Shown one piece after another: positions 7,831 through 42,400 of a stretch of DNA of 64,000 nucleotides; the stretch's first letter is position 1, and each line of letters opens with the position of its first letter. The DNA lies in assembly GCF_000002425.4 (NCBI RefSeq), contig NC_037270.1, positions 8,728,494 through 8,792,493 on the forward strand. The letters run 5' to 3'. The notes under the pieces are model-generated. The model saw nothing but the letters and a program-made list of their open reading frames with translations, did no database searches and had not been told where the DNA came from. The DNA is from Physcomitrium patens (taxonomy: Eukaryota > Streptophyta > Bryopsida > Funariales > Funariaceae). A program made the translations under genes and the position numbers.

Positions 7831-7910
7831 TTTAGAAGAGATTGTAGATTAAGGTAGTAGAATAGTAGTAGAACGGTGTTAGGGACATATTCTTTAGAAC
7901 TTTTTAGAGA

Positions 7911-8149
7911 GAAGTTTCTAGAACCTTCTAGAAAACAAGCCTCTGGAACCTTCTAGAAGAGAAGCCTCTGGAACCTTTTAGAGAGAAGTTTCTAGAAGCT
8001 TCTAGAAAGGAATCCCCTGGAACTTTTTAGAAGCTTCTTAGTTAATAAAAGTAGCTCGAGAAGTTTCTAAAACCTTCTAAAAAGGAAGCCTCTGGAACCT
8101 TCTAGAAGCTTCCTAGTTAATAGAAGTAGCTCGAGAAGCTTCCTAAGTA
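7911..8149 (+). promoter_or_regulatory. Array of heat-shock elements in the LTR U3
   Basis: Heat-shock factors bind alternating GAA and TTC units spaced two bases apart. Five such units in perfect register start at 7911, 7916, 7921, 7926 and 7931. Another five start at 7985, 7990, 7995, 8000 and 8005, and a three-unit site starts at 7946. Further partial sites continue toward the TATA box at 8154. The array arises from tandem copies of a short unit centred on the palindrome TTCTAGAA. The 3' LTR has the same arrangement with a different copy number (about 13651-13850). Heat-inducible transcription is inferred from these motifs. Confidence 0.8.
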
Positions 8150-8153
8150 GGAG

Positions 8154-8196
8154 TATATATAGGGATCGAGGCTGAAGAGTTCTTCAGTCTCGACAA
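8154..8196 (+). promoter_or_regulatory. LTR core promoter with putative self-primer sequence
   Basis: A TATA box (TATATATA) occupies 8154-8161. Thirty-two bases after its first T begins AGTCTCGACAA (8186-8196), which pairs at 10 of 11 positions with TTGTCAAGACT at 8324-8334. A 28-base imperfect palindrome at 8166-8193, with arms TCGAGGCTGAAGA and TCTTCAGTCTCGA, overlaps it. Confidence 0.7.
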
Positions 8197-8323
8197 CACA
8201 TCTCTTGGAGTTCTAGCTCACCTTTCTGGTGTTGTTCTTGTACTCATCTGTTTAATCTAGTTCTGCCACTTCTTCTTGAACTTCTTGTTAGATTTCAAGT
8301 CTGTATTTTGTGTCCGTGACAGT

Positions 8324-8334
8324 TTGTCAAGACT
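8324..8334 (+). other. Putative self-priming primer-binding site of chromovirus 1
   Basis: TTGTCAAGACT begins two bases after the 5' LTR, where a primer-binding site must lie. It matches no tRNA end I recognise, but it is complementary to the predicted first bases of the element's own transcript. A short initiator-tRNA-like TATCAGAGC appears only 27 bases after the LTR. Confidence 0.65.
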
Positions 8335-8601
8335 ACACTAACTTGAGATATCAGAGCTAGTTCTTTCTTAGTAGAGTGTAGATTACCCCTCTACTTGAAG
8401 GTATACTAGCATTTTTTAGAGGTTGCGGATTACCCTCCTCTAAACTGATACTTCTTCTGTTACAATATTGGAGTCTTATTCTTCTTGGAGAGAGTGGATT
8501 ACCCCTCTTCTTGAAATTCTTAAGGCGTTTTATAGGTTGTGGATTACCCTCCTATAAACCAATATTGCCTCTTATAGGGTCATTTTTGTCCTTCTTTTAG
8601 A

Positions 8602-9620
8602 ATGGCCGGAGGTCAAGACATTAGTATGACAGAAAGTTCGGAGTCTAAGTTAGATGCTATTATGAATGCCCTCGCTACGTTATCACAAAGAACTGCAGAG
8701 ATTGAAGGAGTGGTGGCAAGGCTTCATAATGATGGAGTATCTGGGATAGTACAATCTAAACTACACCAGCCTCAAATTTCGGCACTTGGAGAAACAACTT
8801 TACCTCAAGTTCGATAAGAACCACTAGTTCTACAACATAAGGAGCCTCGAGTTAGCCTTCCAGATAAGTTTGATGGAACACGTTCCAAGTTTCGAGGATT
8901 TGTCAATCAAATTAGGTTGATAACAGTTTTACAGCCCGAACGATATCCAATGGAGGAATCATGTGTTGGGCTTGTTGGAACCTTACTTACGGGTCAAGCT
9001 CTATCATGGTTTGCTCCTTTGTTTGAGAAATGATCATCCATATTAAACAACTTCGAAACCTTTTTGGAAGCATTTGCGGAAGCATTTGGTAAACACGATA
9101 AGGTTCGATGGGCTACAACAAAGATCCGGTCGCTACGATAAGGAATGCGTTCTACATCAGTCTATGCTTCGGGTTTCAGGCAATTAGTATGCGACATGAA
9201 TTGGGATGAAGAAGCGTTGATGAGTCAATTCTATTGGGATTTAAGAGATGATGTGAAGGATTTGCTGTTAACTCTTCCTGATCCACGAACGCTCAATGAA
9301 GCCATTAGCCAAGCTGTGAAGTGCAATAATCGCCTATTCCAACGTTGCCAAGACCAACGTTCAAGACAACATACAATTCGCCATGCTCCAACTATGTCGG
9401 CAAGCAAGGTGAATTCGCATTCAGAGGTGGAAGACATACAAATTGATGCGGTACGTATCAAATCTCTTACTATAGAAGAAAAAAAGTGACGTATGGAGGA
9501 AAATTTATGCTTGTATTGTGGTGGAGAAGGCCACAAAGTCGAAAACTGCCCCAAAAAGCAAAATCGAGGCATAGTCAAGACTAGGGGAGTATTTGTTCAG
9601 GAAAACGAGGATGCCCAGCC
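8602..9620 (+). pseudogene. gag region of chromovirus 1
   Basis: The region encodes capsid-like protein starting MAGGQDISMTESSESKLD. Retrotransposon gag motifs follow (LPDKFDGTRSKFRGF), then a zinc knuckle CLYCGGEGHKVENCP at about 9508-9552. It is broken. The related gag in chromovirus 2 begins MAEHLEMKSAMAQMQ. Confidence 0.8.
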
Positions 9621-9632
9621 ACAGTAGGAACC

Positions 9633-12600
9633 GTGTGGCTGGACAATGAAATATCCCAACAACAATCAGGTTCCTTTCTTTCTGCCCAACCTGCACTTTG
9701 TTTTACAATCCTTCTGTTTATCGGCCCTCAAAAACTGAGAACCTTAGCACTACTAGACTCAGGAGCATCTGCTTGTTTTTTAGACGAAGAATTTGCAAAG
9801 CATCATAAGATCCCTTTAGTACAAAAATCAAAACCTGTTCATGTTGAGGTCATAGATGGGCGACCTTTATTGTCTGGTAGCATCACCCATGAATCAAAAC
9901 CTATAGAAGTAACGTTTAAAGACCATAGTAGTCATATTATTTTTAATATTATTAGAACCCCATCAAATCCTATTATTCTTGGTCTTTCTTGGTTGAAAAA
10001 ACATAATCCATTGATAGATTGGAGGTTGCGGAAGATGACTTTTCCTACAAAACCACCCAAAAAAAAACCTAGTAAAAAACCTCGAAAAAAGAAATCCTTA
10101 TTCATTGGAGCAAGAGCGTTTATAAGATCATCTAAGGAAGGTATTCCATTTGTCATTTATGCAGCTCCAACTAGCGAGGAGAAGATCTCAACAGCAAGTA
10201 TACCGGAGCAATATAAAGATTTTGAAGACGTGTTTCAAAAGAAGAACGTCGACATACTACCGGAACAACGACCATATGATTGTGCCATAGACTTGCAAGA
10301 AGGAGCACAACCACCTTTTGGCCCAATCTACAATCTATCGCAAACGGAGTTGGCAGAGTTACGAAAGTACATCGACGAGAATCTAGCCAAGAACTTCATT
10401 CGTCATTCAAAATCATCAGCTGGAGCACCCATCTTATTTGTGAAGAAGAAAGATGGATCATTACGGATGTGTGTGGACTATCGAGGCCTCAACAAGGTAA
10501 CAAAGAAAAATTGTTATCCATTACCCTTGATTTCTAGTCTCTTAGAACAACTTGGACGTGCAAAAATCTTTACAAAAATTGATCTAAGGGGAGCTTATAA
10601 TCTCGTACGAATCAAGGAAGGAGATGAGTGGAAGACAACATTCCATACAAGGTATGGTCATTTCGAATATAATGTCATGCCTTTTGGTCTTACCAATGCT
10701 CCAACGGTTTTCCAACATATGATGAATGACATCTTTTGAGAACACCTCGACGATTTTGTTGTCATCTACTTGGACGATATTCTAATATTTTCTAAAAACG
10801 AGGAAGAGCATGAGGAGCATGTTCGTTTGGTCTTGGAGAAATTACGCAAGCGAGGACTATATGCCAAATTAGAAAAGTATTTATTTCACCAGACGGAGAT
10901 GGAATTTTTGGGGTTCATTGCGACTACAGAAGGTTTGAAGATGGACCCCAAGAAAGTAGAAGCAATCATGACTTGGGAGGTTCCGAAGACGGTTAGAGAC
11001 GTACAATGCTTTCTTGGTTTTGCTAACTTCTATCGGATCTTCATCAAGAATTATTCTCAAGTTGCTGCTCTTTTCACTCGATTAACATGCAAAAATAAGT
11101 TGGAATGGAGACCTTTGGCGGAGAAGGCGTTTCAAGATTTGAAGACAGCATTTACTACAGCTCCAATTTTGGTACATCCAGACTTTACAAAGGCCTTCTA
11201 TTTAGAAACTGATGCTTCAGATTTTGCTTTGGGAGTTGTGCTTTCACAAATGAGTGAAGATAAGAAGCTCTATCTAGTTGCATTCTATTCTCGGAAGTTC
11301 TCTGCTGCTGAAATCAATTATGAGATCCACGATAAGGAACTTCTTGCTATAGTAGATTCTTTTGAAGAATGGCGTCACTTTCTTGAAGGAGCTGCACATC
11401 CAGTAACCGTATATACGGATCACAAGAATTTGGAGTATTTCATGACGGCTCGAGTTTTAAATTGGCATCAAGCTCGGTGGAATATGTCGCTATCTAGATT
11501 TGATTTTGTTATCACTTATCGACTTGGAAGGCAGCAAGGACTATCCGATGCTTTATCAAGAAGATCGTATCTTGCACCAAAGGCTAGAGAAGCAGCGTTT
11601 GATCAACAATGTACAACGTTATTGAAGCCAGAGAGATTTTAACTTTGTGCTACTAGTATATCATTTGATGCTGACTTCCTAAACCAGGTACGTGCTATGA
11701 CCATTAAAGATTCAGTAGCCATTGATATCAAGCAACATACCAATGACGACAAGTTCAAGGTGGAGGGAGATCTTTTATACTTTGAAGAGCGATTGTACAT
11801 TCCTAAAGGACTAGCACGACTCCGAGTTCTTCAATCTCGCCATGATTTTCCAGCTGCGGGATATTTTGGATTCAAAAAGACCTTGGAGCTTATTTCCCGA
11901 GATTTTTGGTGGCCCCAAATGTGGAAGGATGTGAAAGATTTTGTCCTCTCTTATAACATCTGTTCAAGATCTAAGAATCCTCGGCATCGCCCTTATGGAC
12001 TTCTACAGCCATTGCCAATTCCACGTCGACCATGGTCTTCAATTTCTATGGACTTCATCACGGACTTGCCATCATCAAACTCATTTGACAGCATCTTTGT
12101 CGTGGTAGATCGGCTTACAAAGATGGCACACTTTGTTCCTTATAAGAAGACATCATCTAGTGAAGTCACAGCAAGACTCTTTCTCGATAATGTGTATCGA
12201 TATCATGGACTACCAGATGATATCATATCAGATCGAGGTACCCAGTTCGTGTCAAAGTTTTGGAGATCTCTCTTTGGGATATTGAAGGTGGATATCAAGC
12301 TTTCTTCAGCTTTTCATCCTCAAACTGATGGCCAAACGGAACGGGTGAACCAAGTCTTGGAGCAGTACTTATGATGCAGCATCAACTATCAGCAAGACGA
12401 TTGGACTGCATATCTATCACTAGCCGAGTTTGCATATAACAACACCCTCCATGCGTCGACTCAACAAACACCATTCTTTTCCAACTATGGGTATCATCCG
12501 AAGCTTGATTTATTGAGTCCGTCAACAAATAACAATCCAGGAGCTGAAGGATTTGTGAAGCAACTATCAGAGCTTCAAACTATATTGAAGCTTCAATTAC

Positions 12601-13103
12601 AATCCGCTCAAGAATCCTATAAGACGTCTGCAGATAGATTTCGGAATCCAGCACCTACTTTCAAAGTTGGAGACAAAGCCTGACTTCTTCGACGAAATAT
12701 CAAGACCAAGCGACCATGTGATAAGTTGGACTATCAAAGATTGGGACCATTTATCATCCAGAAGCAAATTAATCCAGTGGCATACCGGCTGGAGTTACCG
12801 GCTTCTATGAAGGTACATCCAGTCTTTCATGTTTCTCTGTTGGAACCTTATCAAGAGTCATCTTTTCTTGGAAGAGTGCAATGTCCGCCACCTAGTATTG
12901 AAATCGAGAACCACGAAGAATACGAGGTTGAAAAGGTATTGGATTCACGGCGAAGGTGGGGAAAGTTAGAGTATCTTGTTCATTGGTGCGGCTATGATAT
13001 TAATGAGCGAACGTGGGAGCCAGCTGAAAATCTTGCAAATGCGCTACAAAAGGTACAGGAGTTTCATCAACGATATCCCGATAAACCTAAATCAATTCCA
13101 TGA
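9633..13103 (+). pseudogene. pol region of chromovirus 1: PR, RT, RNase H, IN, chromodomain
   Basis: The aspartic protease motif LLDSGAS lies at about 9750. Reverse transcriptase spans about 10200-10900, with LPFGLTNAP-type and YLDDILIF motifs. RNase H (ETDASDFALGVVLS) is at about 11206. Integrase has an HHCC finger at about 11840-11970 and a core with MDFITDL and SDRGTQF at 12049-12250. The C-terminal chromodomain ([20 protein letters not shown], then [13 protein letters not shown]) covers about 12920-13080. RNase H precedes integrase, as in Ty3/gypsy, and the chromodomain places it among chromoviruses. The region is interrupted at a few places and is treated as a fossil. Confidence 0.9.
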
Positions 13104-13348
13104 TAGCTTCTTTCTGAAGCTTGTTCTTCCAACAATATAAGAAAAGAGGAGAGCACCAGCAAAATTCATAGTTGATGTAGTTATTTTCTCCAAGATAGAT
13201 CGTAGTTTGGTCTTTTGATATGGATAGCCAAGAGATAGATACTATGCCTGTCAGAGTATCGCAACCGAATAGCTCACGAAGGTGATCCCGAGATGAAGAA
13301 CTACATGTACCACGATGACCACAGAAGATACGGAGTAACCGATCACTG

Positions 13349-13567
13349 GTGATCGTATTTGAGATTGAGCCTGCTTACGATGGTCAACCAGAAGGCGTGT
13401 TTGCAGGACAATTTCACAATGAGGACATGGAAGTTCATGCTTGGTCAGAAGTCGAAGGCGTGGGCCACTACCGTTGGCTTCAAGGGTCGATGAACCACTT
13501 GCCTCGTGAACAACAGTTGGAGTTCATAGCAGAAGTTATGCGACGAATCTTCATTTTCTTGCGTTGA
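13349..13567 (+). CDS. Extra frame of chromovirus 1 between chromodomain and 3' LTR
   Basis: This 72-residue frame follows the pol region. Its second half, containing HYRWLQGSMNHLPREQQ and a basic, hydrophobic tail, recurs in the same place in chromoviruses 2, 3 and 5 of this window. That similarity across diverged copies argues for a real protein segment. It matches no envelope or other retroelement domain that I recognise. Confidence 0.5.
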   Translation: MIVFEIEPAYDGQPEGVFAGQFHNEDMEVHAWSEVEGVGHYRWLQGSMNHLPREQQLEFIAEVMRRIFIFLR

Positions 13568-13620
13568 TACTGATCAACAACATTGCTTCTCAGAGACCTC
13601 GAAGCTAAAGGAGGGGATGA

Positions 13621-14040
13621 TGTTAGGGACATATTCCTTAGAACTTTCTAGAGAGAAGTTTCTAGAACCTTCTAGAAAACAAGCCTCTGGAACCTTCTAG
13701 AAGAGAAGCCTCTGGAACCTTTTAGAGAGAAGTTTCTAGAAGCTTCTAGAAAGGAAGTCTCTGGAACCTTCTAGAAGAGAAGTTTCTAGAAGCTTCTAGA
13801 AAGGAATTCCCTAGAACTTTCTAGAAGCTTCCTAGTTAATAGAAGTAGCTCGAGAAGCTTCCTAAGTAGAAGTATATATAGGGATCGAGGCTGAAGAGTT
13901 CTTCAGTCTCGACAACACATCTCTTGGAGTTCTAGCTCACCTTTCTGGTGTTGTTCTTGTACTCATCTGTTTAATCTAGTTCTGCCACTTCTTCTTGAAC
14001 TTCTTGTTAGATTTTAAGTCTGTATTTTGTGTCCGTGACA
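13621..14040 (+). repeat. 3' LTR of chromovirus 1
   Basis: The 420-bp partner of 7877-8321 is almost identical to it after the TATA box (13873-13880). It differs upstream mainly in the number of heat-shock-element units. The self-primer sequence lies at 13905-13915. Confidence 0.95.
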
Positions 14041-14045
14041 AACGG

Positions 14046-16597: not shown

Positions 16598-17445
16598 ATT
16601 AATTTTCTTCCACTAATGCAAAACGTCCTGGTTTTACTCTCGATGGTATTTCCAAAATATCTCTTAGTAATGAGTGAAGTTTTGTGCAGATTCCAACATT
16701 GCATCATGAATATGATAACCTTTCTAAAGTACTTTGTATTAAAATTGTGGATGTCCACTACCACGATGAAGGTAGCAATGCTCCAAAATATTGTCCACTT
16801 CATATTCTTCTTAGTCATCAATTACAACTAGTAGTATTGGTAGTTGATGTCGATTCGGAAAGTATTTTGACTCGATATGAAATTTCTTTAGTTACAAAAT
16901 ATAGAAGACTAAATGGATTCAAATATGTCACGAAAGCTCAAGGTAGTATGCGATACCAAAAATCACTGTAGAAACATCAAAAGGTCCAAGCTATCAAGAT
17001 GTGTCATGGACATACACATGTAAATCAATAACTACTTATATGATTTAGATAATAGTACGTAAAAGTAAGTCAATTCTATAATATCTTCTATAAAAGCTTC
17101 CTAGAAGCTTCATAGACATTGCTTTGACTTTATAAGTGTCTTTAATTAATTTTTTAGGTTAAAAATGTAGTCAACAAGTTAGCCATGTGTCACACATGTT
17201 GATAGTTTGAAGAACAAGCTTATTATGTGGTCCACACATAGAAAACTTGTCTTCTAAGCTAAGGCATGTGTCTTATAAAGTCAATACATATTAGAGGTCC
17301 TATAGAACATTACCAAATAGCTCTTAGTTAGATAGTATATATATATAGTCAAAAGTGAATCTCTCTTCACTCTTGTCAATTTCTTTTTTTTTTCTAGTCT
17401 AATTTCAAGAGACTCAAGTTTTCTTGTCTTTTCACAATAAATCGT

Positions 17446-18701
17446 TGTCGGGGTAGAAAGAATTTGCTTCAAGAAAATGATGGGCTTCTGGTTGTCACTA
17501 ATCATTCAATCAAGCTTCAAAATAAGGAAAGCCCTAAGTTTACATATAATTTTTTTTTTTAGCAATTATACCAAATATACAAGCCTCAAGTAACCAACAA
17601 CATCCAAAATATGATAAATCCTTTAAAACCTTGTATATTCTTATGTAAAAAATTGTCAAAACTTCAACAATTCATATCTCCTAATCCGACCGTCCAAACA
17701 AACTCAAATTTTACTTGAGATACTGATATATTCTTATTAATTTTTTTAACAAATTTCAACCGCAAATTTATTGCGGATCTTGAGATATCTTGAAAATCCT
17801 AACACTCGCTTCAAATCCTTATCCTTATCCTTATACATCTATGTGCAATTTTCTTTATATCTCACAAAATATAAGCTCAAATGCCACAAAATTTATATGT
17901 ATAGCTTCTTAACACAAAATGTTAAATTTTCCAAAAATTTAAAGTCAAAAATTTATTCAAAAACTCAAGTTATGGCTCCAACCATTACTATAAACAAAAC
18001 CACTTACTTACTATCTTTGATTTGGAAGTGTCACCTTCAATTCCTTATAATTCCTTCACATAAACTCTAAAAGTAATAATTCTTTTATAAAAAATGTAGG
18101 ATTTAAAATCGCCGTTCCATTCACACCTTTCAATCTTCAAAAGCTATTCTACAACTCCTCGTATCTTCAAAAGAGTAATGGTATATCTTAAATTAATACC
18201 TTAACTTCAAATAGCTATAACGTCTTCACCCTAACTCCAAATCTTCTAATTTTTATACACAAATTGTATTCCAAATCCTAAGCTTTACAAACCTAGCTTT
18301 TAATCTCTCAATACTTTCTTTGAAGTCACCAAAACCTTTGTTAAGGTCGCGGGCAGCCTTCTTAAAGCCCATTGGGCATGGTATTCGACCAATAGGAATG
18401 AAGTTCTCTATTCCTTGCCTTCATTTGACCATGCCTTGCTTTCATCTCTCCCAATTAGCCTCCTACTATTTTCATCCTTAGGCTTCTACCTTCTCCCAAG
18501 GCTTCATACTAAAAATTTAGGTCTTATATATATATATTTTTTTTAATGTCAAAATCAAAACAAGTAAAGAAACAAAGTAAAGTTTCTTATACTAACTCTT
18601 TTTAATTTAATCTATTAGCCACTCTAACACACATCTAGATTTATTAACATATAATATGTTTTAACTAATTTTTACATATTGTAAGCATTTATAGTACAAC
18701 A
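17446..18701 (+). repeat. LTR-like repeat A (1.26 kb) inside the 5' LTR of chromovirus 3
   Basis: It starts TGTCGGGGTAG and ends TACAACA. It is related over its full length to repeat B (inverted, 21973-23255) and repeat C (24832-32480). TG...CA-type ends and no coding capacity suggest solo LTRs. Flanking 4-bp sites TCGT/CTGT may be a decayed target duplication. Confidence 0.65.
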
Positions 18702-21700
18702 CTGTTCTATTTTTTTTTTAATATATATACTTCTTTATTTCTATTTTGTCACTTTTTCTTTGATACGGATTTCATTGGTTTATACATCATCTTCCAGTTC
18801 ATATCTTTGACAGTTTGACAAGAGTACACTTACAATATAAGAGCTTTGTCTTAATTTAATTAAGAGTAGATTACCTCTTTTTCAAGATAAGACATAAGCA
18901 TATTAGAAGTTGTAGATTATCTTTTTCTAAATTTATATTTTTTTTAGTATTTTCTTTATCCTCAAGCCCTTTCTTCTATTTATCTTGAATAGTATTAGAT
19001 ATTTTTTTGAGTATTATTATGGCAGAGCTTGTTGAAATGAAGAGTGCAATGGTACAAATGCAAGAGTAATTGAGAGAGTTGATGCTTGCGATGCATCAAT
19101 TTAGCTTACCACTATAAAGATCAACAAGAATGGCAAGAAATGAGGATATAGAGATGATTAGAGCTACTTCAACATTTTCACCAAATCATGTCCTTCTACT
19201 CACGATGGAACATCCTTCAAGTGTTAGAGAACCAAGAATTGATTTGTCCGAGAAGTTTGATGGTAAAAGATTCAAATTTTGAAGATTTATTAATCAAGTA
19301 TAACTTATGATTGAACTTCAACCTCAAAGCTATATATTTTAAGGATCACAAGTTAGATTTAATAGTACACTTCTTTCATGTTTAACACTAACATCTAAGA
19401 GCTTTCTTGCATGCTGCAAAAAAATGATCATCTTTTGTCATTTACGCCACACCTATTTCTAATGATGCGAAGACTTCAAGTAGCATTCCAAGCCAATATC
19501 AAGAGTTTTAAGATGTATTTGAGAAGAAGAATATAGATACTATTTTAGAATATTATTCCTATGACTGTTCAATTGACCTTCAAAATAGAGCACAACAACC
19601 ATTTGGACCAATCTATAATTTATGACAAAATAAATTAATTGAACTCAATGAATATATTAAAGAGAATCTAGGCAATAATTAAATATGCCATTCCAAATTA
19701 CCAACAAGAGCTTTAATCTTATTTGTGAAGAAAAAAGATGGATCATTGCAAATGTGTATTGATTATCGAAGATTCAACAAGATCACCATTAAGAATAAGT
19801 ATCTTTTACGTTTAATATCTGGACTTCTTGATCAATTGAATCAAGATATGATCTATACAAAAATAGATCTTTGAGGATCATACAATCTAGTATATATTAA
19901 AGAAGGAAGTGAATAGAAGACTGTGTTTCAAATTAGGTATGGAAATTTTGAATACAATATCATACCTTTTGGACTTATAAATACATTGGTAGCTTTTCAA
20001 CATTTAATGAATGGTGTCTTTTGAGAGTTTTTGGATGGTTTTTTTTTTCTATTATTTGGATGATATCTTAGTCTATTCTAAGAATACAAATAAATATGAA
20101 TTTTATATTTGTTGTGTATTACAAAAATTAAAAGATGTATGATTCTATGCCAAGTTATAAAAGTATGTATTCTACACTACTTAAGTCGACTTCTTAGGAT
20201 ACATCATTTGAAATGATGGACTTATGATGGATCTTAAGAAAGTTCAAACTATTATGGATTGAAAGATTCTAAAAATGTTAAGAGATGTTTAATGCTTTTT
20301 GGACTATGCCAACTATTATCAGATCTTCATCAAAGACTTTTCTCGAATTGCAGCCTCACTTACACGTTTAACTTGCAAAGATAAACTTGAGTGGAGTAAA
20401 GAAGCTTAAGCATCTTTCAAAGCTTTCAAGTCATCTTTTATTTTTGCACTAATCTTGTATCGCGTTGATTTTTTTAAGGCATTTTTTATGGAAACAAATG
20501 CATTAAACTTTGCTTTGAGTGCTATATTATCACAAATGGAAACAGATAATAAATTTCACCTAGTAGCTTTTCATTCCAAAAAAATTTTAGCAGCTAAGAT
20601 TAACTATGAAATCTACGACAAACAACTTCTTATAATCGTGGATTCATTTCAAAAATAGCATCATCATCTAGAAGGGACTTCTGATCTAGTCACCATATGT
20701 ACGAGCCATAAGAATTTCAAGTATTTCATGTCAACACAAGTTTTGAATCGTTGCCAAGCCCATTGGAGGATGTATTTATCAAGATTTGATTTCAAGATCA
20801 CATATCAACTTACAAAACAACAAGATTTATGAGACTCCCTTTCTAGACGTTCTTATGTTGCACCAAAAGAAGAAAATATCTCTTTTGATTAACAAAAAAG
20901 AATTTTCTTGAAGCCAGAGCATTTTTATCTTTGAATAATGAAATCAATATTGACTATTGATTCAACCCTTATGAAACATATCCAATCAAGTATGTCTTTT
21001 GATCCTCTTATTGACAATATCAAGAATCCTTCTTCTAAGCCCTAAGATACTTCTAAGTTTGAGTACAAAAATAACCTACTCTATTTTGAAGATCAATTAT
21101 ATGTTTGAAAAAAAGAAGCACAATTACGAGTTCTTCAAGCATGTCACAACTTTCCAACAGTAGAACATTTTAGATACAATAAGACTTTAGAACTTATATC
21201 TAAATAGTTTTGGTGGCCACAAATGTGAAAAGGTGTAAAAGACTTTGTTCAATCATGCGATGTTTGTTTAAGATGAAAAACTTCCCATCATCGATCTTAC
21301 AGAATTCTTCAACCATTATTCATTCCAGAACAACCATGGTCTTCTGTTTCTATAGAATTCATCATAGATCTTCTAATCTCAGGTTCTTGTGACTCTATAT
21401 TCGTGATAATAGATCATTTTACCAAGATGACATATTTTGTATCATGTACAAAATCTATCACATATAAAGAAATAGTTAAACTCTTTCTTAACAATATCTA
21501 TCGCTATCATGGATTATCCAAGGATATTATATTTGATAGGAGAACTTATTTTGTATCAAGATTTTAGTAGACTCTTTTCAAGATTCTAAAAATAGATATA
21601 AAACTATCTTTTGTATTCCATCTTCAAACTGATGGACAAATAGAGCATGTTAATCAAGTTTTGGAGTAGTATTTAAGATATACCATTAACTATCAATAAA

Positions 21701-21972: not shown

Positions 21973-23111
21973 TGTCATACTATAATTGCTTATAATATCT
22001 AAAAATTATTTTGGACATATAATATGTTGATAAGTCTTGGTATATGTTAGAATGGTTAATAGATTAATTTAAAGAGAGTTGATATAAAAAACTTTATTTA
22101 AAGTTTTATCTATTTTGATTATAGGATTTAAAAAAATTATAAGACTTAAATATTTAGTATGAAGCCTTGAGAGGGAATTAGAACTTAAAGATGAAATTCT
22201 TAACTAGTAGGAGGCTTATTGGGAGGGATGAAAATAAGACATGGTTGGATGTAGGCAAGGAATGGAAATCTTCATTCCTATAGGTCGAAGGCCATGCCTA
22301 ATGGGCTTTAAGGAAGCTACCCGAGGCCTTATTAAGGATTAGGATTTATCTTTTGAAGTCACTTGAGCTTTAGAGGCTAAGGTCAGCAAGTTCAGGTTTT
22401 TAGGTATGGATTGGATGCAAATTTTGTATGATTTGGAGTTTTTATGAAGGAGTTATTGGTGCTCAAAATTAAGATCTTTATTTCATACCTATTGTCACAC
22501 TTTGGGACATAATATACGTTTACAAAGAGAAAAAAAGGATCGGCAACTAGAATTGGAGATAACACTTCTTTAACTACACTTTTAATATATTTTTTAATGA
22601 ATTTGGAGTTTGAATGAAGAAGTTATAGAAAGTTAAAGTCAGCACATTCAAATCAAAGGTAGTAAGTAAGTGATTTTGTTCATAGTAATGGTTGGAGCCA
22701 TATCTTGAGTTTTTAGATGAATTTTTAGCTCAAATCTTTTAAAAAAGATAGATTATTGTGTTAAGAAGTTATATATATAAATTTTGTAGCATTTGAGTAC
22801 TTATTTTGTGAGATATAAAGAAAATTACTTATAAGTATATAAAACTAAGGTTTGAAGCTACTGTTAGGATTTTAGTGATATCTTAAGTTTCGTAATGAAT
22901 TTGTGATTGAAATTTTTTGTAATAGTTTTTAGAAGTATATTATTACTTCATGTAAAATTTAAGTTTGATTGAATAGTTCAATTGAAAGATATGAGTTTTT
23001 GAAGTTCAAGAATAATACTCCATAAGGATATTTAAGGATTTAGAGGTTTTATCATATTTTGGATGTTTTTGAGAACTTAAGACTTATATATTTGGTTTAA
23101 TTTTTATTAAA

Positions 23112-23164
<53 letters not shown>

Positions 23165-23255: not shown

Positions 23256-25840
23256 ATGTGGGTGATAAGGTATAGTTACTTTGTTGCAATATCAAGACTA
23301 TTCATCTTTGTAATAACTTGGACTATTGTAGGCTTAGACCATTTTCTATTTCTACACAAGTCAATTTAGTTTCATATTGTTTATACCTATCGGAGTCAAT
23401 AAAAATCCATCTAGTATTCCACATGTCTCTTCTTGAACCATACAAGACAGTGGATATACCAATAATAAGATATGTACCACTTGAAAGAAGTTATGAAGGC
23501 CTCAACAATGATCAAATAACAAGGTCATTTTTCTGCCCTGATATGGGATACTATCGATGGTTGAGAAGGCCTATCAACTATCTTCAAGAAAGCAAAGATC
23601 GGAGTATGTGACAAATATAATTTGTCGTATCTTAGATTTCTTCAATATATGAAGACTGCTCTTCATAGAACTCATTCCTAGAATGAGGGAGAATGTCATG
23701 AACATACATATATAAACCAATAATTACTTATATGATTTAGATAATAGTAGATAAAAGAGGTTAATTCCATAATATCTTCTATAGAAGCTTTTTAGAAACT
23801 TCATAGACACTATTTTGACTTTATAGATGTCTTTAGTTGACTTTTTAGATTAGAAACATAGTCAATAAGTTGGCCATGTACCATATATATTAATAGCTTG
23901 AAGAACAAGATAACTATGTGGTCTTTTGGCAAAACCTTGTCTTTTGGCAATAAGCCATTCCAGTTTTTTTTTAATATACGTACTTTTTTATTTCTATTTT
24001 GTCACTTTTTCTTTGATACGGATTTCATTGGTTTATGCATCATCTTCTAATTCATGTTCTTGAAAAGGTGCTAGTTTATGAATTTGAATTGATCTAATAA
24101 GTGACAAATTGGCATTTGAGATTAACACTTAATCACCCTCCCAAAAGGTCTTGTGTTGCTGATGGTTATCTATATACTACTTCTTTCGATTTCTGAATAG
24201 TAAAGAGGTAATGTCATGCCTTTTGTAAGGCTATTGTAAGCCGTTATATAAATTCCTATGTTGTTAGATTGTTGGTGTCGATGGGACAATGGAGAGTTGT
24301 TAACATAATTAGATGTTGAATAGTATTAAAAAAAAAATGGTGAATGACTTGTACTTGCTTAAATACTACCTTTGTAAGCAAACTCCAAGGGCGTGAAGTA
24401 TTGATTCTAATCATTATGATGAATCACTACAAATGCCTATACCATATCCTCTAAAGTTTGATTTGCATGCTCTGTTTGCCTATCTATTTGGAGATGGAAG
24501 ATTGTAGACATTCCAAGTCCTGTACCTAATAGCTTAAATAAGGCTTATCAAAAACTTCTTAAGAATCATGGATCTCAATCTAAAATGAAGACACAAGATA
24601 ATCCATGGTGATAAAAGATAGTATCAAAGAAGACTCATGCAAGCATTACAATATCGATATCCAAGCAGATTGCACCCAAATAAAGTTGCTTCAAGAATTG
24701 ATCTACAAAGACGACAACCGCAATATGATTATGACGCATCTATAGCAAACACATAATGAGATCCATAGTCACCTACTTCCAATATACTGTAAGCAGCATA
24801 ATTGGCTGCAATAGTCTAGGAGATGCTGTATTGTTGAGATCGAAAGAATTTACCTTAAGAAAATATTGGGCTTCTGGCTGCTACTAAATGCTCAATCAAA
24901 TCTAAGATATTAAATTTTTGAGTTTATATATATAATATTTTTCCTTTTAGGACAATTACATCAAAACATAAGCCTAAGTACAAAAACAAATCCAAATATA
25001 TGATAAAATATCTTAAAACTTTATATATCCTTATGGAATTTTTTTTCTGAACTTCAATAATTCATATCTCACAATTTAACCATTCAAATAAATTAAAATT
25101 TTATAAGAAGTACTAATATACTTTCAATAACTATTAAAACAAATTTTAACTACAAATTTATTACGGATCTTAAGATATTACTAAAATCCTAATAATAGCT
25201 TCAAATCCTTACTTACATACACTTGCATTCAATTTTCTTAATATCTCATAAACTGAATATTCAAATACTATAAAACTTTTATCTATAGCTTTTTAATCTA
25301 ATAACACATACTTATAGAAATTTTTAGCTAAAAATTCATTCAAAACTCAAGATATGGCTCTAATCATTACTATCAACAAAACAACTCACTTACTATCTTT
25401 GAATTACATGTTTTGTTTTTAACACCTTATAACTCCTTCATCTAGATTTAGAACTCATCAAACAATATATGAAAAGTATAGTCAAGAAAGTGTTCTCTCC
25501 AATCCCAATTGTCAATTCTTTGTTGCTCTCCATAACCATATGTTATGCCTCAAAGAATGATAGTAGATATGAAATTGACACCTTAATTTTGAGTGCCTAT
25601 AATTCCTTCATAGAAATTCTAAATCACACAAAATTTGCACTTGAATCATATTCAAAAATCTAAACTTTTTGACTTTAGCCTCCAAAGCTCAAATGACCTT
25701 GGAAGAAAAATCCTAATTCCTAATAAGGCCTCAGGCAACCTCCTGGAAGTCCATTGGACATGACATTCAATCAATAGGGATGAAGATCTTTACCTCTTAC
25801 TTTCATCGAATCATACCTTACTTTCATTCTTCTCAATAAG

Positions 25841-26401
25841 TGTCAAGGACAAGAACTCGATGAAAAAACAATTTAGACAAGTGAACCTTCACTCAAAGAG
25901 AGGTAACAAAATATATATAAACAAGTATATATATTGAAATAGAAACTGGAATGGCTATTGCCAAAAGACAAGAAAACTAGAGACCCTTGAAACTAGATTG
26001 GAAGCAAGAAAGGAGTTGACAAGAGTGAAGAAGCCTTCACTCTTGTCTCTATATATACTATCTAACTAGGGGCTACGTGGCGACATTCTATAGGACCTCC
26101 AATATGTGTTGATTTTGTAGGACACATGCCTTGACTTACAAGGTAAGTTTTTCTACGTGTGGGCCACATAGTTAGCTTGATCTTCAAGCTAACAACATGT
26201 GTGGCACATGGCCAACTTGTTGACCACATTTCTAATCCAAAAAGTCAATTAAAGACACCTATGAAGTCAAAGCAGCGTCTAAGAAGCTTTTAAGAAGCTT
26301 CCATATTAAATATTATAGAATTAACTAACTTTTACCTACTTTTACTTACTTCTACCTATTTATATATGTAATTATTAGCTTACATGATTATGGTCGTGAC
26401 A
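25841..26401 (-). repeat. 3' LTR of chromovirus 2
   Basis: This 561-bp partner of 31676-32235 is close to it in sequence. Its self-primer sequence is at 26026-26016 on the minus strand. Confidence 0.9.
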
Positions 26402-31463: not shown

Positions 31464-31662
31464 GATAACACTTAGAAGACAGAAGATGTCTAATATCGCT
31501 CAAGAGAAATAGAAGAAAGGACTTGACGACAAAGAAAATGATAAGGACAATATCAATTTAGAAGAAGGTAATCCGCAACTTCTAATATGCTTGTATCTTA
31601 TCAAGAAAAAGGGATAATCTACTCTTAATCAAGATTGGACAAAGCTCTGATATTGTAGGTGT

Positions 31663-31673
31663 ACTCTTGTCAA
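31663..31673 (-). other. Putative self-priming primer-binding site of chromovirus 2
   Basis: TTGACAAGAGT starts exactly two bases after the 5' LTR. It is perfectly complementary to ACTCTTGTCAA at the predicted transcript start (31860-31850). A TATCAGAGC motif follows 23 bases after the LTR. Confidence 0.7.
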
Positions 31674-31675
31674 TT

Positions 31676-32235
31676 TGTCAAGGACAAGAAATCGATGAAA
31701 AAACAATTCAGACAAGTGAGCCTTTACTCAAAGAGAGGTAACAAAATATATATAAACAAGTATTTATATTGAAATAGAAATGGAATGGCTATTGCCAAAA
31801 GACAAGAAAACTAGAGACCCTTGAAACTAGACTAGAAGCAAGAAAGGAGTTGACAAGAGTGAAGAAGCCTTCACTCTTGTCTCTATATATACTATCTAAC
31901 TAGGGGCTACGTGGCAACATTCTATAGGACCTCCAATATGTATTGACTTTGTAGGACACATGCTTTGACTTACAAGGCAAGTTTTTCTATGTGTGGGCCA
32001 TATAGTTAGCTTGATCTTCAAGCTAACAATATGTGTGGCACATGGCCAACTTGTTGACCACGTTTCTAATCCAAAAAGTCAATTAAAGACACCTATGAAG
32101 TCAAATCAGTCTCTAAGAAGCTTCTAAGAAGCTTCCATATTAAATATTATAGAATTAACTTACTTTTACCTACTTTTACTTATTTCTACTTATTCGTATA
32201 TGTAATTATTAGCTTACATGATTATGGCCGTGACA
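31676..32235 (-). repeat. 5' LTR of chromovirus 2
   Basis: The 560-bp LTR on the minus strand begins TGTCACGGCCATAATC and ends CTTGACA. The TATA box is at 31891-31884. Thirty-one bases later ACTCTTGTCAA (31860-31850) starts, within a 13-bp perfect stem hairpin whose upstream arm reads GACAAGAGTGAAG. Confidence 0.9.
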
Positions 32236-33606
32236 ATAAGTCTCCTAATAGTTTATATTTTCATCTTTAGATTTCAACCTTCTTTTAAGTTTTATACTAA
32301 ATATCTAAATCTTATATAATATAAATATTATAATCAAAATAGATAAACTTCCAAAAAAAGTTTCTTATATCAACTCTTTTTAAATTTACTTATTAACCAG
32401 TCTAATCCACATCAAGACTTACAAACATTATATATTTTTTAAATTAATTTTTATATACTATAAGCAACTATAATATGACAGCGTTGTGTATTTTATTATG
32501 TTGACATAAATCACAAGAGTATACAAAGGCTCAAGCATCACGATCCAAACCTACCTAAAACCATATCCTTGAGATTGGTTCTAAAGTCTTCTCTCATCCT
32601 AGATGTCTAAATATTGGGATTTCATATTCTTCTTGAAGCATGCACATCTGGAATTTAGCATTGTTAGATATATAAATTCGCTTCTTGAAACAAAGCAAGC
32701 CAGTACTAAGAGTGTAATCTTAAAATTGTATATAGCCCACCTTCAGCCAATCACTAACCATCTTGAAATAAGCATCCTGATACACTGCTTCTTTCTATTT
32801 TGCCTCTTTGGTTAAATCTATAATGACACTACTAATGGTAGCAACTTTTGCTTTGTCTCCCAAATTGTCCTTCAAGTCTAGATTTTGTGATAAGTTGTCT
32901 AGCACAGTATGTTGTCTCCCTTCCTTATACTTAAGCTGGATATTAAAAAGGTGCAACTATTCTTTTCAATGATAATAGTACAATTTTATATTTTTCAAAT
33001 GTAAATCATGTAGCAAGGATCGACGGTCAATCCAAATAACCATTGGCTTCTTCAATAGATAGTGTCGTCACACCTTTGTGGTATGTATAATTGCTAATTA
33101 TTCTTGATCACGTGCAAAGTAATTGCGCTTTGGCCTTCTAAACTTGTGTGATATATATGCCACATGTTGAAGTCTCCTACCAAAGTTTTGTTGAGGGACC
33201 GCTCTAATAGGAAAGTTAATAATATTAATGTCAAGTATACAAAGAAGATTAGGATTATATGATTGTAATATTAGAAGAATAAAGTGTGTCTCTTTCAACT
33301 TATTAAAGGCATTTTGCTACTCTAGTTTATATTCAAATGAAGCATCCTTCTCTAATAGCTTTGTCAATGAGACAACAATGTGTTCAAATCACCAAACAAA
33401 ATGGCAATAATATCTAACAACTTTAGAAGTTGGCCAATCTTCCAGTGCTTTCACCTTATCTTGATCCATGTGCATACCTTTGGAAGACATCACATGCTCC
33501 AAAAAGGTAACTTCTGACTTCCAAAGTTTACATTTTAATTGCTTACAATAGAAGCGACTATCTAGTAGCCAATACAACACTTCTTGTAGGTGTTGTTCAT
33601 GCTTTT

Positions 33607-35821
33607 TGTGAACTCAAATAAACCTCCACTAGTTGGAAGTTTGTTTTAGTTCATAAAAAGTGACTTGACTAGGTGAATTTAAAAGTAAGGCCATTATTCA
33701 AATTTTAATCCAATCATTAGTTGTTATTGTCATAACACCAAGTTATTAATCAAATCTTCTAATTATTATTCACATTCACAATGATAATTCACTCATTAAA
33801 CTTCATGCAAAATAATTCCTTCTTTTAATTCTAATTATATAATTTATTTTTAAATAAATATTTTTTTCTTTTCTTTCTTTTTTATTAGGTTTTTTATTTT
33901 ATTTTATTTTTATTTATTATTTTATTTATTATTATTATTTTTAAATATATAAATTATTACTTCTCAAATAATTGGTGGTAAGAGTAATTAATTAAGTTAT
34001 TATTATTAATCCATAGTAAAGGTAAAATCTTAAGTAAAAATTAAAAGTTTAAGTTTTAACAAATTGAAAATAAAAAATAAAGTTATCGATTAAGTAAAAA
34101 GTAAAAATTAAAAAGTAAAAGTTAAAAGTAATAAGTTAAAATTAAAGTTCAAAGTTTACATATAGAAGTTACGAGTTACTGTAAAAATAAAGGAAAAAAT
34201 AAAAACTAAGAGGGATGAAGAAAAGGCACCTTAATAACGACCAAGAATTTAGGGCAGCAACTCCCTTCTACTCCAAAATTCGCCAACCATTCTTATCAGC
34301 TTCAATTCTGATGATTTTTGCTTGGTTGGAAACCTAACTTAGAGACGCTTCTGCTCTAAGAAACTGTGTGGCAATCCAATACCCAAGGCATGCGCAATGC
34401 TCCTTCAAAGTTGAATAACTGAGACCGCCACGGCAGCTTACCACCCTTCACTCCAAAATGCTCCAAAAATTTGGATCTGCTTCAAACGTAATTAAACTTA
34501 TGCCATTGGAAGCTTAACTTGTATGTGCTCTTATTCTTAAAATTTCAGAATGCTTTAAGTAAAGGGCACTGAGAAATGTCTTTTCAAAGACTGGTGACCC
34601 AAACTGCCAAGGCAGCCAACCCCCTTGCACTCAAAAATTCACAAAAATTTGTTTTAGCTCCAAATTGAGCAAGCTTGAGCTCGTTGGAAATCTGACAGTA
34701 AGAGGTATGTGCTAAAAAAAACTCACTACAAAAATTAAAAGGACCAAAGACTGATTGGAAAAAATCTGAAGCCCTTCAAACCCACTTAACTATGGAAGTA
34801 TTTGGAAACCACTAATTCTAAGGGAGTGCCTTCTAAACCACAACAAGCACCACCCACAACACAAAATCTATGATCACACATTCACAAGGTGCACAATGAG
34901 CATTAGGATCCAAAATGAAATTGGAATTAGGGTTTTAGGCCAAGATTTGGCATCGCTTTGCCTTTCATCAAAAAAGAGAGAGAGAGGACTTGGAAAAACA
35001 AGCCACTCTTATACTATTGTGGGAGGGTGGCCACATCTCCACCCTTGATCTCTAAGATCCCTAATGTAGATCTATGGCCTTCATTCATCCAAGCTAATCC
35101 TGTCACTAAGACTGATGGCTCTTGTAAGTGGTCAAAAAAACATTTTTTTGTAAATCTAACTTCACCATTGTGTTTAAAACACCTTTCTATGCTAAGATTA
35201 ACTACTCATCTGTGCCAATCCACATTCATATGCAATTTTTATGAACTTTTTACCTCCAAGAGTTTTGGCAATTATTGAGAATTCCTTCAAAAATGATATC
35301 TTCATGGCTCCACTTATAATTTGGTGGAGAGGTGCTGATCTTGTTTTCTTCACTCCATGAGGCAAATCCAATGCCGCCATTGCATTTGGAAGGCTTTCAT
35401 TAATTAGAAAAGCCATCTTGTTGCTTGAATTTGTTGAATGAAGAGAAAAACATTAAATTGCCCTTGCTAATTTTTACTAGAATCCTTTTTAGAAACTTAT
35501 GATTTTAATTCACTCTAAATCTTATGAGATGATTGTAAGTGAATTCATAGGCTTTTAATCAATTCTTATAGAAATGACTATAATTTCTAAATTACTAAAA
35601 TTAATTAACTTACTATTCTAATTTTCTAAAGTCTATGATTTTGGTCCTAATTAATCCAATTTAAAGAATTAGATTAAGATTTGTACCATTAAAGGTTATA
35701 ATCCTCAAAATTCTACAAAACTAGATTTTAATTATATAAAACATGATCTAACTTATTCAATTATTACAAAATACGAGAAAAAATATAAAATTTAATCTTG
35801 AAACATAATCTGGGACTCACA
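33607..35821 (-). repeat. Solo LTR X (2.2 kb) inside gypsy 4
   Basis: It starts TGTGAACTC and ends GACTCACA on the plus strand, flanked by a perfect 5-bp duplication CTTTT at 33602-33606 and 35822-35826. It has no coding domains and splits the reverse transcriptase part of gypsy 4, so it is a solo LTR. Three diverged modules spaced about 178 bp apart start near 34253, 34431 and 34609, each with a CACTCCAAAAT-like core. A strand-asymmetric A-rich tract of AAAGTTAA-like units covers about 34020-34190. A related copy lies inverted at 61618 onward. Confidence 0.85.
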
Positions 35822-38448: not shown

Positions 38449-39046
38449 TTATATAATATGAAGGCATAGATAAAAAAATAATTATAATAAAAAATAATTA
38501 ATATGGATGCTTATCGCAAAGAAAAACTATAATTTAATATATGTGATAATATATGGCTACTTTATTGTAATATCAAGACTACTCGTCCTTGTGACAAGTT
38601 GGAATATTGTAGGCTTGGACCTTTTCCTATTAGTGAAGAAGTCAATCATGTTGCTTATTGATTAAATCTATTGGAGTTTATGAAGATCCATCTTATATTC
38701 CATGTATCTATTTTTGAACCAAATAAGTCAATGAATATCTCAAAAAGAAGACAAATGCCACTTCCTTCCATAGAAGTGGATAATAATGAAGATTTTTAAA
38801 TAGAAGAAGTGTTAGATTCAAGGTAATACCAAAATAAGTTAAAATATCTTGTTTATTAGTATAGATATGATATTAGTAAATACACATAGGAGTCAATAAA
38901 GAATCTTATAAATATAATAAAAAACATCAAGATTTTTATTGACAACATCTATCAAAATCAAAGTGAAGAAAAATATATCTTTATTATAAAAGAAAAAAGA
39001 TCTAGGAAAGATAGCATTTTATCTTCTATTCTTGTTTGATACTTCT

Positions 39047-39431
39047 TGAAAAAACACAATAAGCAAGACACAAGTAAGTAGAAATCAGCAAGGTTAGTTA
39101 CAAGAGAAGTGAGGAATGAGATGCCTCTCACTTCCAATACCTTTTACTTATAGGTAAAGGTTACATCTATTTTGGCTAATATTCATCTTACTTTCATCCA
39201 ACTAAATCCTAGGTTCCTCTTAACCTAGCCCCCACTTTAAATCCTAGCCACTTCTTATAACCCTAGCCACCACTTTAAACCCTAGCTGCTACCTATAACC
39301 TTAGCTGCCACTTAAAATCCTAGCGGCCACCTTGATAACTTTCCTTCATCCTTTTGCTGCCCTTTGACCATTAACAATTTATCTAAGATAATATCTTTTA
39401 TCTTCTAACTTATCCTCCATTTATTTTAATA
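39047..39431 (-). repeat. 3' LTR of copia fossil 2
   Basis: The 385-bp LTR is rich in CCTAGCCACC-like tandem units (39220-39330), which also occur in the 44012-44396 partner. Confidence 0.85.
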
Positions 39432-39442
39432 CTCCCACTTTG

Positions 39443-42400
39443 CTATTGGTCAAAGGCTAATAAACCTAATCCCTTTGTCAATTTGTAATGTCTATCCTTC
39501 ACCAATACTTTTGTGAGTAAATCAGCAAGCATGTCTTCTGTTGCACAATACTTCATGTCAATTACTCCCATCTCAATCTTCTCCCTTATGAAGTAATGTT
39601 GAATGTCAATGCGCTTTATCCTTAAATGATGCTTTGGATTCTTGGTAAAAGCAAGACATCTTTGATTGCCACACTTCATTGCAGTTGCTTCCAATTACAC
39701 GAGTCCAATGTCTTCTAAAACTTGTCTTAGTCATATTGCCTCAATTGCACCATGACTTATTGCCATGTATTCTGCCTCCATTATAGACCTTGCAATTGTT
39801 AGTTGTCTCTTACAATTCCATGAAATTACTCCCACTCCAACAAAGAATACATATCCTATTGTTGATCTTCTATCATTTGCATCTCCAGTCCAATCTACAT
39901 CACAATATCCATGCAATGTAATACTATTACCTTCGAGACTTAATTTGAAGTTCAAAGTGCCTTTTAAGTACCTCAAGATTTTTTTAATGGTTGCCCAATG
40001 AATTGGTCCAGCCTTTGATATGTGTTGACTCACAACACTCACCGCATATGCAAGATCCACCCTTGTACCAACCATTGCATATATAAGTAAGTCTATTGTT
40101 GCCTTGTATAGAACATCTTTCATTTTTTCTTCAACTTCAGCAAATTCCTCATCAGTGAGCTTCATCAACTTCAAATTTGCCTCCAAAGGTGTTCTAATGG
40201 ACTTGCACTCTTCCATGTTGAACCATTTCAACACTTCTTCAATGTACTTTTTTTGACTCAATGTAATGATCTTCTTAGCTCGATCTCTCACAAATTCCAC
40301 TCCTAAGCAATAGTGGAGCTCTTTCAAATCACTCATTTCAAATTCTTTTGCTAACTTTGCCTTCAATCAATCTATCTTTTTCAAAATATTGGTCAAAATG
40401 ATCAAATCATCAACATAAGGAATAACAATTAGCAAGAAGGCTTTTAATTGCATCACATACATGGAATGATCACCTTCACTCTTCACAAATCCTTCATTCA
40501 CAAAAAAGGTGTCGATACATTGGTACCATGCCCTTGATGATTGCTTAAGCCCATACAAGGATTTCTTCAACTTACACGCAAGGTGTTGTTTGCCTTCTTC
40601 AACAAATCCTTGAGGTTGATCCATGTAGATGTCTTCTTTCAATTCTCCATTCAAGAAAGCTGTCTTCACATTCATTTGGTACATCTCCAAGTCCATTGCT
40701 GCCTCAATTACCAGAATGATTCTAATAGTGGTGAATTTGGCCACAGAAGCAAATGTCTCATTGAAATCAACACCAGCAACTTGTAAGCAGCCTTTGGCAA
40801 CCAATCTTGCCTTATACTTCATAATATTGCCTATTGCATCCCTTTTGGTTCTAAATACCCACTTACAACCAATTGAAGCTCGATTTGGTGGAAGTTGAAT
40901 CAATTCCCATGTTCCATTGTCCATGAGTGATTTGTATTCTTCTTCCATGACATTCTCCTACTTCATAGCATCCGTGGAATTCATTATATCACATAAACTC
41001 AATGGATCAACGAGAAGTGCAATATTGACATGTTCTTTACTTACTTGAGGAAAAATATGGTCCTTCTACCATTCACCATGTTGTTTTCTATCTCTCAAAG
41101 GATATCTCCTTTCATTTGAAGAAGACTCAACTTATTGTACTCCATGGTTACCTCCAACCTTCTTTTCTTTTGAAGATTGTCTTTTCTCACTCAAAGTTTC
41201 ATAATCTCCATCACCATCATCATCAACATCTTCATGCTCTTCATTGCTGGTCTTAGCAATTGTAGAGGCCTTCTTCTCCACCTTCTTTGCTTCTTCATCT
41301 TCATTTCCACCTTTACAACCATCATTGTCTTTGTCTACTTCCTTCTTTGCTAAATTTGAAGATGTGTCCACAAACACACCATTACTCCCACTTGGATACA
41401 TCTCCAAGTGCTCACAAGCACTCTTGTGCTCCAAAAACTCAACATCACGGCTTTTGATGATCTTTTTAGTCTCCAAACACATGAGCCTATAAGCCTTTGT
41501 ACCTTCATAATATCCAACAAACACACATTTTGTATCTTTTGCATCAAATTTTGATCTCATACAATTTGATATCTTTGCATATGCTATGTATCCAAAGGTC
41601 TTCATGTGAGAAATACAAGGTTTTTTCCTACTCCAAGCTTCTTCCGGCATCATTCATGTAAGTGCACTTCTAGGACACCTATTTTTTGTGTGTACTGCAT
41701 TCACCACTACTTCTACCCAAAATTCATGTCCAAGGTGTTGTGCATGAAGCATACTCCTTGCCATCTCTACAATGGTCCGATTTACTCTTTCAATAATTCC
41801 ATTTTATTGTGGAGTGTAAAGAATGGAGGTTTGTCTTGCAATACCATGTAATTTTAAAAAATCATTGAATTACTTTGACATATACTCACTTCCATTGTCT
41901 GTATGTAATACCTTGATTTTGCATATACATTGCTTCTCCACAAATGCCTTAAACTCCTTAAACCTTATGAAATACTCACTCTTTGCTTTGAGGATAAAAA
42001 TCTATACTTTCTTTGAAAAATCATCAATGAATGTGACAAAATACCTTGTACCTTCTATTGATCGCATCCTCAAAGGTCCACAAACATCAGAATGAACAAT
42101 CTCTAATAACTTGGTTGCACATGTTGCAAGTGCAATTGGAAATGAGGCCCTTTATTGTTTGCCTTGAATACAACCTTCAAAAGAAAGTATCATAGCATTG
42201 TGGCTTATATGACCAAGATCTAAGCCACTTACCATGGATTGGAGCTCCTTCATACTCTTGACATTCAAATGACTAAGGCATCGATGCCAAATATCAAACT
42301 TGTCTTCATCTTGAAGAAATTCAACAAATGTTGTCACTTCAACTTCATTCACCTTCTTACACTTGATGAAGTAGAGGTTGCCATCTCTAAAGCCCTTTAA

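Follow-up and report, generated by a model that had tools for sequence, protein, structure and literature searches.

How do the chromoviruses of a moss begin reverse transcription? The question is raised by a 64,000-nucleotide stretch of the Physcomitrium patens genome (contig NC_037270.1, positions 8,728,494 to 8,792,493; hereafter the window), in which an initial annotation described three Ty3/gypsy elements, chromoviruses 1 to 3 (c1–c3), whose presumed first RNA bases are complementary to a site just past the 5′ LTR. From this it was proposed that the lineage primes reverse transcription with its own mRNA, in place of the tRNA that plant Ty3/gypsy elements normally use.

Priming of this kind is known from the yeast element Tf1, in which the first 11 bases pair with the element's own site, RNase H cuts between bases 11 and 12 (PMC7175516), and a three-duplex structure is required (PMC10085805). 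For plants, Neumann 2019 (PMC6317226) predicted self-priming for most Tcn1-clade elements of moss and clubmoss and also for the TAR copia elements and, in the part of that study available to us, for no other plant chromovirus group. As far as the accessible text of each report goes, Novikova 2010 (PMC2864245) found neither tRNA priming nor self-priming for SM-Tcn1, a Tcn1-clade element of Selaginella, and Novikov 2012 (PMC3350952) described Tcn1-like elements of Physcomitrella with a classical-type chromodomain. Here we describe in the moss elements and their relatives a primer/site complementarity with a fixed offset, a near-constant TATA spacing and matched two-sided changes between families. 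We put the probability at roughly 0.86 that Ty3/gypsy chromoviruses of the c1–c3 type prime with the 5′ end of their own RNA and not with a tRNA; the 3′ copy of the primer would be hidden in a hairpin.

Results

Three chromoviruses in the window

c1 occupies positions 7877 to 14040 of the plus strand and is flanked by the target duplication AACGG (7872–7876 and 14041–14045); its 5′ LTR (7877–8321; 445 bp, TG...CA) and 3′ LTR (13621–14040) were delimited by LTR–LTR alignment and by the flanks. c2 lies on the minus strand, from 32235 to 25841, with the target duplication CTTAT and with LTRs delimited in the same way (5′ LTR, 31676–32235; 3′ LTR, 25841–26401). The 5′ LTR of c3 (plus strand) is split into two parts, 17002–17440 and 18705–18812, by an insertion of ~1.26 kb (17441–18704). 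c1 and c2 are diverged, with 67% nucleotide identity across 3.7 kb. Their pol pieces, taken together, contain protease, RT, RNase H (PF17917/PF17919) and integrase domains. The C-terminal integrase piece of c1 (12684–13100, plus strand) carries a Tf2-type SH3 domain and a chromodomain of family PF00385 (E 5e-17), which was also found in c2 (E 9.5e-9), these being the two elements scanned. All three elements likely belong to the Tcn1 clade.

The insertion in the c3 LTR is a member of a repeat that is also present at 21978–23126, 24831–25840 and 32256–32497, and c2 seems to have inserted into another copy of this repeat, since matching stretches abut both of its ends. One cellular gene was identified in the window, a PEX11 peroxisome gene (55.6–58.1 kb, minus strand). 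Its protein, spliced by hand, matches a P. patens peroxin at 98%; the next best match was at 87%, and another P. patens protein followed at 84%. We had considered a fungal host, since self-priming is routine in fungi, and rejected it because this gene assigns the window to Physcomitrium.

The predicted RNA 5′ end is complementary to a site beside the LTR

The TATA box of c1 (8154–8161, plus strand) begins 32 bases upstream of an 11-base segment (8186–8196; AGTCTCGACAA), the predicted self-primer, which pairs at 10 of 11 positions with a predicted primer-binding site (8324–8334; TTGTCAAGACT) located 2 bases past the LTR. The corresponding segment of c2 (31850–31860, minus strand; ACTCTTGTCAA) follows the TATA start by 31 bases and pairs 11/11 with 31663–31673. 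In c3, 17369–17379 pairs 11/11 with 18815–18825 (plus strand); primer and site are 1.4 kb apart in this element because the insertion splits its 5′ LTR, and the distance from TATA to primer is 33 or less (the TATA run is long). The same 11 bases persist in two old LTRs, at 45242–45252 (plus strand) and 52758–52768 (minus strand). The strings and positions in the three elements and the two old LTRs, together with the TATA distances of c1 and c2, had been given in the initial annotation, and each was reproduced when rechecked or remeasured. The offset of 2 bases also stands: it is counted from the true LTR ends, since target duplications, read by eye, flank c1 and c2, and both pairing and offset are indeed kept despite the divergence of these two elements.

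The sole unpaired primer/site position of c1 is a C·A at 8191, where the primer contains a CpG. Such a mismatch would be expected if a methylated CpG had decayed in that copy; its relative L001 (see below) pairs at every position.

We estimated the contribution of chance with 3000 dinucleotide shuffles of each LTR. At an offset of 2, at least 10/11 positions paired in 40 (c1), 36 (c2) and 48 (c3) of the shuffles, and all 11 in 2, 0 and 3, respectively. With any offset from 0 to 5 allowed, the counts rose to 141, 160 and 172 (~5%) for at least 10/11, and to 6, 5 and 7 for 11/11. Because shuffles reach 10/11 fairly often, the pairing in any one element is only mildly surprising. The recurrence of place, offset and start-site spacing across elements is not due to chance, with c2 and c3 counted as close relatives and not as independent cases.

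Primer and site change together between families

A scan of genome contigs yielded seven loci related to the window elements (L001–L007), all in bacterial records; they are apparently eukaryotic retrotransposons that contaminate bacterial MAG and genome records. Two scans of viral contigs found no relatives. The near relative of c1, L001, sits in a cyanobacterial MAG (isolate AVDCRST_MAG81).

L001 shares 91% identity with c1 across the RT/RNase H piece and has the same primer; L003, with 52% identity in that piece, has a different one (AAGGCGAACAA). In both loci the site pairs 11/11 and begins 2 bases past ...GACA, and the primer lies 32 bases after the TATA start. Shuffling produced 11/11 in 0/3000 cases for each locus and at least 10/11 in 9 (L001) and 1 (L003). 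Over c1, c2, c3, L001 and L003, 54 of 55 pair cells are Watson–Crick, the exception being the C·A of c1. The offset is 2 bases in all five and in L002 as well, and the TATA spacing is 32 in c1, L001, L003 and one L002 LTR, and 31 in c2. The L003 primer differs from the window primers at 6–7 of 11 positions, each difference matched by a change in the site, and altogether seven of the 11 primer positions (2–8) vary between families with the partners changed on both sides.

The remaining loci were less regular. Within its own 5′ LTR, L002 has no matching site for its primer, the best match being 7/11 and off the start site; 9/11 was reached with its other LTR. None of the four loci L004–L007, inspected by eye and on contigs that may lack the 5′ LTR, has a primer/site match in the context of a TATA box and the end of an LTR; inverted 10–12-mers in three of them and two 9/11 matches all lie outside that setting.

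In a phylogeny based on the RT/RNase H piece, c1 joined L001 (100/98), c2 was placed nearby and a fern protein (Adiantum) next (93/86), and L002 and L003 formed the sister branch, with a support of 94/97 for all of these together; the values of 93/86 and 94/97 are just under the tool's starred level, and the reference rows were fern and fungal. Fungal rows fell outside. Among the 120 matches listed per search, the named eukaryotes were fungi and one fern. L002 and L003 come from one MAG recorded as 'uncultured Trichormus'. The fern Azolla has Trichormus as its cyanobiont, and our guess is that Azolla hosts these two elements.

Self-priming probably accounts for the pairing

Read from sequence, the pairing is best explained by self-priming, as the initial annotation proposed, and this interpretation is well supported: pairing, offset and start spacing hold in c1–c3, L001 and L003, and no tRNA 3′ end fits the site better. 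The TATA spacing of 31–32 predicts that transcription starts with the first primer base, an A (8186 in c1, 31860 in c2). The 11-base site 2 bases past the 5′ LTR would then pair with the predicted RNA bases 1–11, RNase H would cut the RNA after base 11, presumably as in yeast Tf1, and the freed 11-base piece would be extended by reverse transcription.

We folded the RNA freely from the predicted start for c1, c2, L001 and L003; c3 was left out because the insertion separates its R region from the site. Bases 1–11 paired with the site at 0.55–0.99 per base in c2, 0.61–1.0 in L001 and 0.59–1.0 in L003. The c1 primer did not pair with its site in the free fold (probability about 0.001), and forcing the pairing cost just 0.4 kcal/mol (−67.4 vs −67.0). 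As for the pretzel flanking duplexes of Tf1, those of c1 and c2 were no better than shuffles in three of four tests (shuffles as good, of 300: 16 for c1 downstream, 296 for c1 upstream, 86 for c2 upstream and 165 for c2 downstream), the c1 downstream exception being weak. The free fold of L003 contained an 8-bp duplex between bases 17–24 and the sequence just upstream of the site.

A hairpin across the predicted start site

The predicted start lies within a hairpin of up to 13 bp. Positions −4 to +9 make up the 3′ arm, and the 5′ arm belongs to U3. In c1 (8165–8194, plus strand) it consists of a U3 arm (8165–8177), a loop (8178–8181) and an R arm (8182–8194), with 11 Watson–Crick pairs and one G·U of 13; in c2 (31852–31881, minus strand) all 13 positions pair around a 4-base loop. 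Six of nine LTR copies have at least 12/13 positions paired, with G·U allowed: those of c1, c2, L001, L003, the old LTR at 52.7 kb (13/13) and one L002 LTR. The hairpin is decayed in c3 (10/13 pairs), the old LTR at 45.2 kb (10 pairs and one G·U of 13) and the other L002 LTR. When the hairpin region was shuffled, 12/13 was reached in 1 (c1), 7 (c2) and 0 (L003) of 2000 cases. Folding z was −5.55 in c2, −4.35 in c1, −6.63 in the 52.7 kb LTR, −2.19 in c3 and −1.29 in the 45.2 kb LTR. Between families, both hairpin arms change letters in step, and the U3 arm, the primer and the binding site change together. With the window copies only, the count of two-sided changes in the hairpin was reached by 191/500 shuffles and the covariation score by 4/500.

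We also tried a lax 9-mer search for a hairpin combined with a downstream match. It returned 1208 matches on the plus strand of the window, those listed being mostly AT and heat-shock-element repeats, and was uninformative.

What could the hairpin do? Should the RNA begin at the primer A, its 5′ end would be without the U3 arm, and the hairpin would be restricted to the 3′ end. With its terminal repeats, the RNA would contain the primer twice: the 3′ copy, which keeps the upstream U3 arm, would fold into the hairpin, and the 5′ copy, which has no U3 arm, would be left free for the binding site. Computed energies in c1, c2, L001 and L003 are −19 to −21 kcal/mol for the hairpin vs −10 to −16 for primer:site; by these values the hairpin is the more stable of the two in all four, and it should be favoured wherever the RNA includes the U3 arm. 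In the c3 copy (−6.4 vs −14.4), masking would fail because the hairpin is weaker there than primer:site. On this thermodynamic argument, we infer that the hairpin masks the spare 3′ copy of the primer. A fuller version, which we offer tentatively and at a little below even odds, is an RNA with two states, in which the 3′ primer would be locked in the U3/R hairpin with the U3 arm as a decoy site, and arm, primer and site would form one three-strand unit evolving across moss and, probably, fern elements.

The strongest competitor accepts self-priming and gives the hairpin some other role, such as placing the 3′ processing site or aiding strand transfer. HTLV-1 provides a precedent, since its RNA hairpins across U3/R act in 3′ end formation, and the restriction of the hairpin to the 3′ RNA copy, should transcription begin at the primer, speaks for such a role too. 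By itself, however, it gives no reason for the U3 arm to resemble the primer-binding site, as it does because it is complementary to the primer, whereas masking gives one. The present data do not separate the two; we regard another role as somewhat doubtful, though a serious candidate.

A second alternative would make the primer/site match a by-product, the palindrome serving as DNA to which an initiator-binding protein attaches, with chance or common descent behind the downstream match. The palindrome does span the predicted start, and, as noted, about one shuffled LTR in 20 attains at least 10/11 at offsets 0–5. A protein site would be expected to keep its letters, however, whereas the primers turn over (AGTCTCGACAA, ACTCTTGTCAA, AAGGCGAACAA) and the U3 arm, the R arm and the distant site remain complementary through that turnover, which makes this account very improbable.

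To return to masking, we met no self-primed element described as having a hairpin across its start site in the accessible text of the Tf1/sushi and Tcn1 literature, in which early Tf1-group work is only partly covered. Chromoviruses are said in the available part of PMC3601003 to prime by a '5′ hairpin', a term that we take to denote the primer:site pairing.

A structured module follows the binding site

Directly past the binding site lies a three-way junction whose two hairpins have GGAUUACC-like loop letters. This leader RNA module occurs once each in c2 (31542–31656, minus strand), c3 (18832–18946, plus strand) and L001, and twice in c1 (copy a, 8345–8459; copy b, 8462–8573; plus strand). 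Folding z was −3.67 and −2.57 for copies a and b of c1, −3.30 for c2 and −1.73 for c3. An alignment of these four copies has 24 pairs, with 96.9% of cells paired and six pairs changed on both sides; the two-sided changes and the covariation score were each reached by 0/500 shuffles, and the count of further pair types by 49/500. These results are flattered, since the four copies being scored are also the ones from which the structure was built. One of the slid controls had four pairs changed on both sides. A model built from the four modules found the L001 copy (307–418, E 2.6e-22) and had no match in the six other loci (L002–L007); a further candidate in the window, at 33515–33647, was dismissed as not credible (E 0.056). 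A comparison of the window with Rfam gave no match at or above a family's gathering score. Packaging and dimerisation are natural guesses for the role of the module, and we met no covarying three-way junction after the primer site in the accessible literature on self-primed elements.

The module also bears on the possibility that a tRNA primes these elements after all, probably initiator tRNA-Met as in most plant chromoviruses. In favour of a tRNA, the motif TATCAGAGC, which we take to match the 3′ part of initiator tRNA-Met, occurs 24–28 bases past the LTR of c2 and c1. It is not at an offset of 0–5, however; it forms one side of the stem that closes the leader module, and its partner strand changes with it, and c3 carries TATAAGAGC in its place, so that we rejected priming through this motif and assign it to the stem. 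Moreover, a tRNA-type site starts with TGG because mature tRNAs end in CCA, and as TGG does not occur within 30 bases past the LTR in any of c1, c2 and c3 (3/3), no CCA-ending tRNA can pair there; priming by a tRNA is thus highly unlikely.

Discussion

Self-priming in the moss elements is not new in kind. The initial annotation had presented it as a departure for plants; the reading is supported, and its novelty is smaller, since self-priming had already been predicted in 2019 for Tcn1-clade elements of mosses and clubmosses (PMC6317226). As far as the available part of that study goes, the earlier plant prediction rested on sequence matches, whereas start spacing, offset and two-sided changes across diverged families enter here as well. 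To this we add a covariation across families in which offset and spacing stay fixed, a hairpin at the start site and a leader module.

c1–c3 resemble Tf1 of fission yeast and the other Tf1/sushi chromoviruses (with Tj1, Tosmo and Tcn1 of Cryptococcus) in that the first 11 RNA bases, predicted in our case, match a site past the 5′ LTR (PMC7175516, PMC10085805, PMC4600332); c1 and c2 share the chromodomain integrase with them, and c1 the Tf2-type SH3 domain. Compared with what the accessible parts of these reports describe, the moss elements add the start-site hairpin and the three-way-junction module. With the Tcn1 elements of mosses and clubmosses (PMC6317226, PMC3350952) they share the host group, the predicted self-priming and a classical-type chromodomain (PF00385 in c1 and c2); relative to the available account of the prediction by clade (PMC6317226), the hairpin, the start spacing and the three-strand covariation are added. 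They are unlike SM-Tcn1, for which the part of the report available to us gives no detected self-priming (PMC2864245). Vendrell-Mir 2020 (PMC7466625) reported the P. patens gypsy families RLG1, RLG2 and RLG3, of which RLG1 has a chromodomain integrase and, by that account, 5092 complete copies, against 529 copies of RLG2; these share host and gypsy type with c1–c3, which were not matched to a named family.

Elements with self-priming are expected to face the problem of keeping the spare 3′ primer off the binding site, and the hairpin is a candidate answer. If the two-state reading is true, only the true 5′ RNA end could prime, and the two identical RNA ends of the element would be distinguished. 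If L002 and L003 are indeed from Azolla, the mechanism would extend to ferns. P. patens is a moss in which transcript ends can be mapped.

The LTRs of c1 carry dense heat-shock-element arrays: the 5′ LTR contains 9 three-unit elements and the 3′ LTR 13, where shuffled letters would give about 0.01. The window has 24 such elements altogether, and these two LTRs account for 22 of them. We presume GAAnnTTCnnGAA or its mirror to be a three-unit heat-shock element. In the accessible part of Vendrell-Mir 2020 (PMC7466625), heat is reported to induce RLG2 strongly and to repress RLG1.

A copia element of the window (39046–44394, minus strand) has TTATGGGCCTAC at 43995–44006, just past an LTR whose end was taken from the repeat alignment. 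This sequence presumably fits a half initiator-tRNA-Met primer. In the available part of Neumann 2019 (PMC6317226), Bryco is among several copia groups described as using such a primer type.
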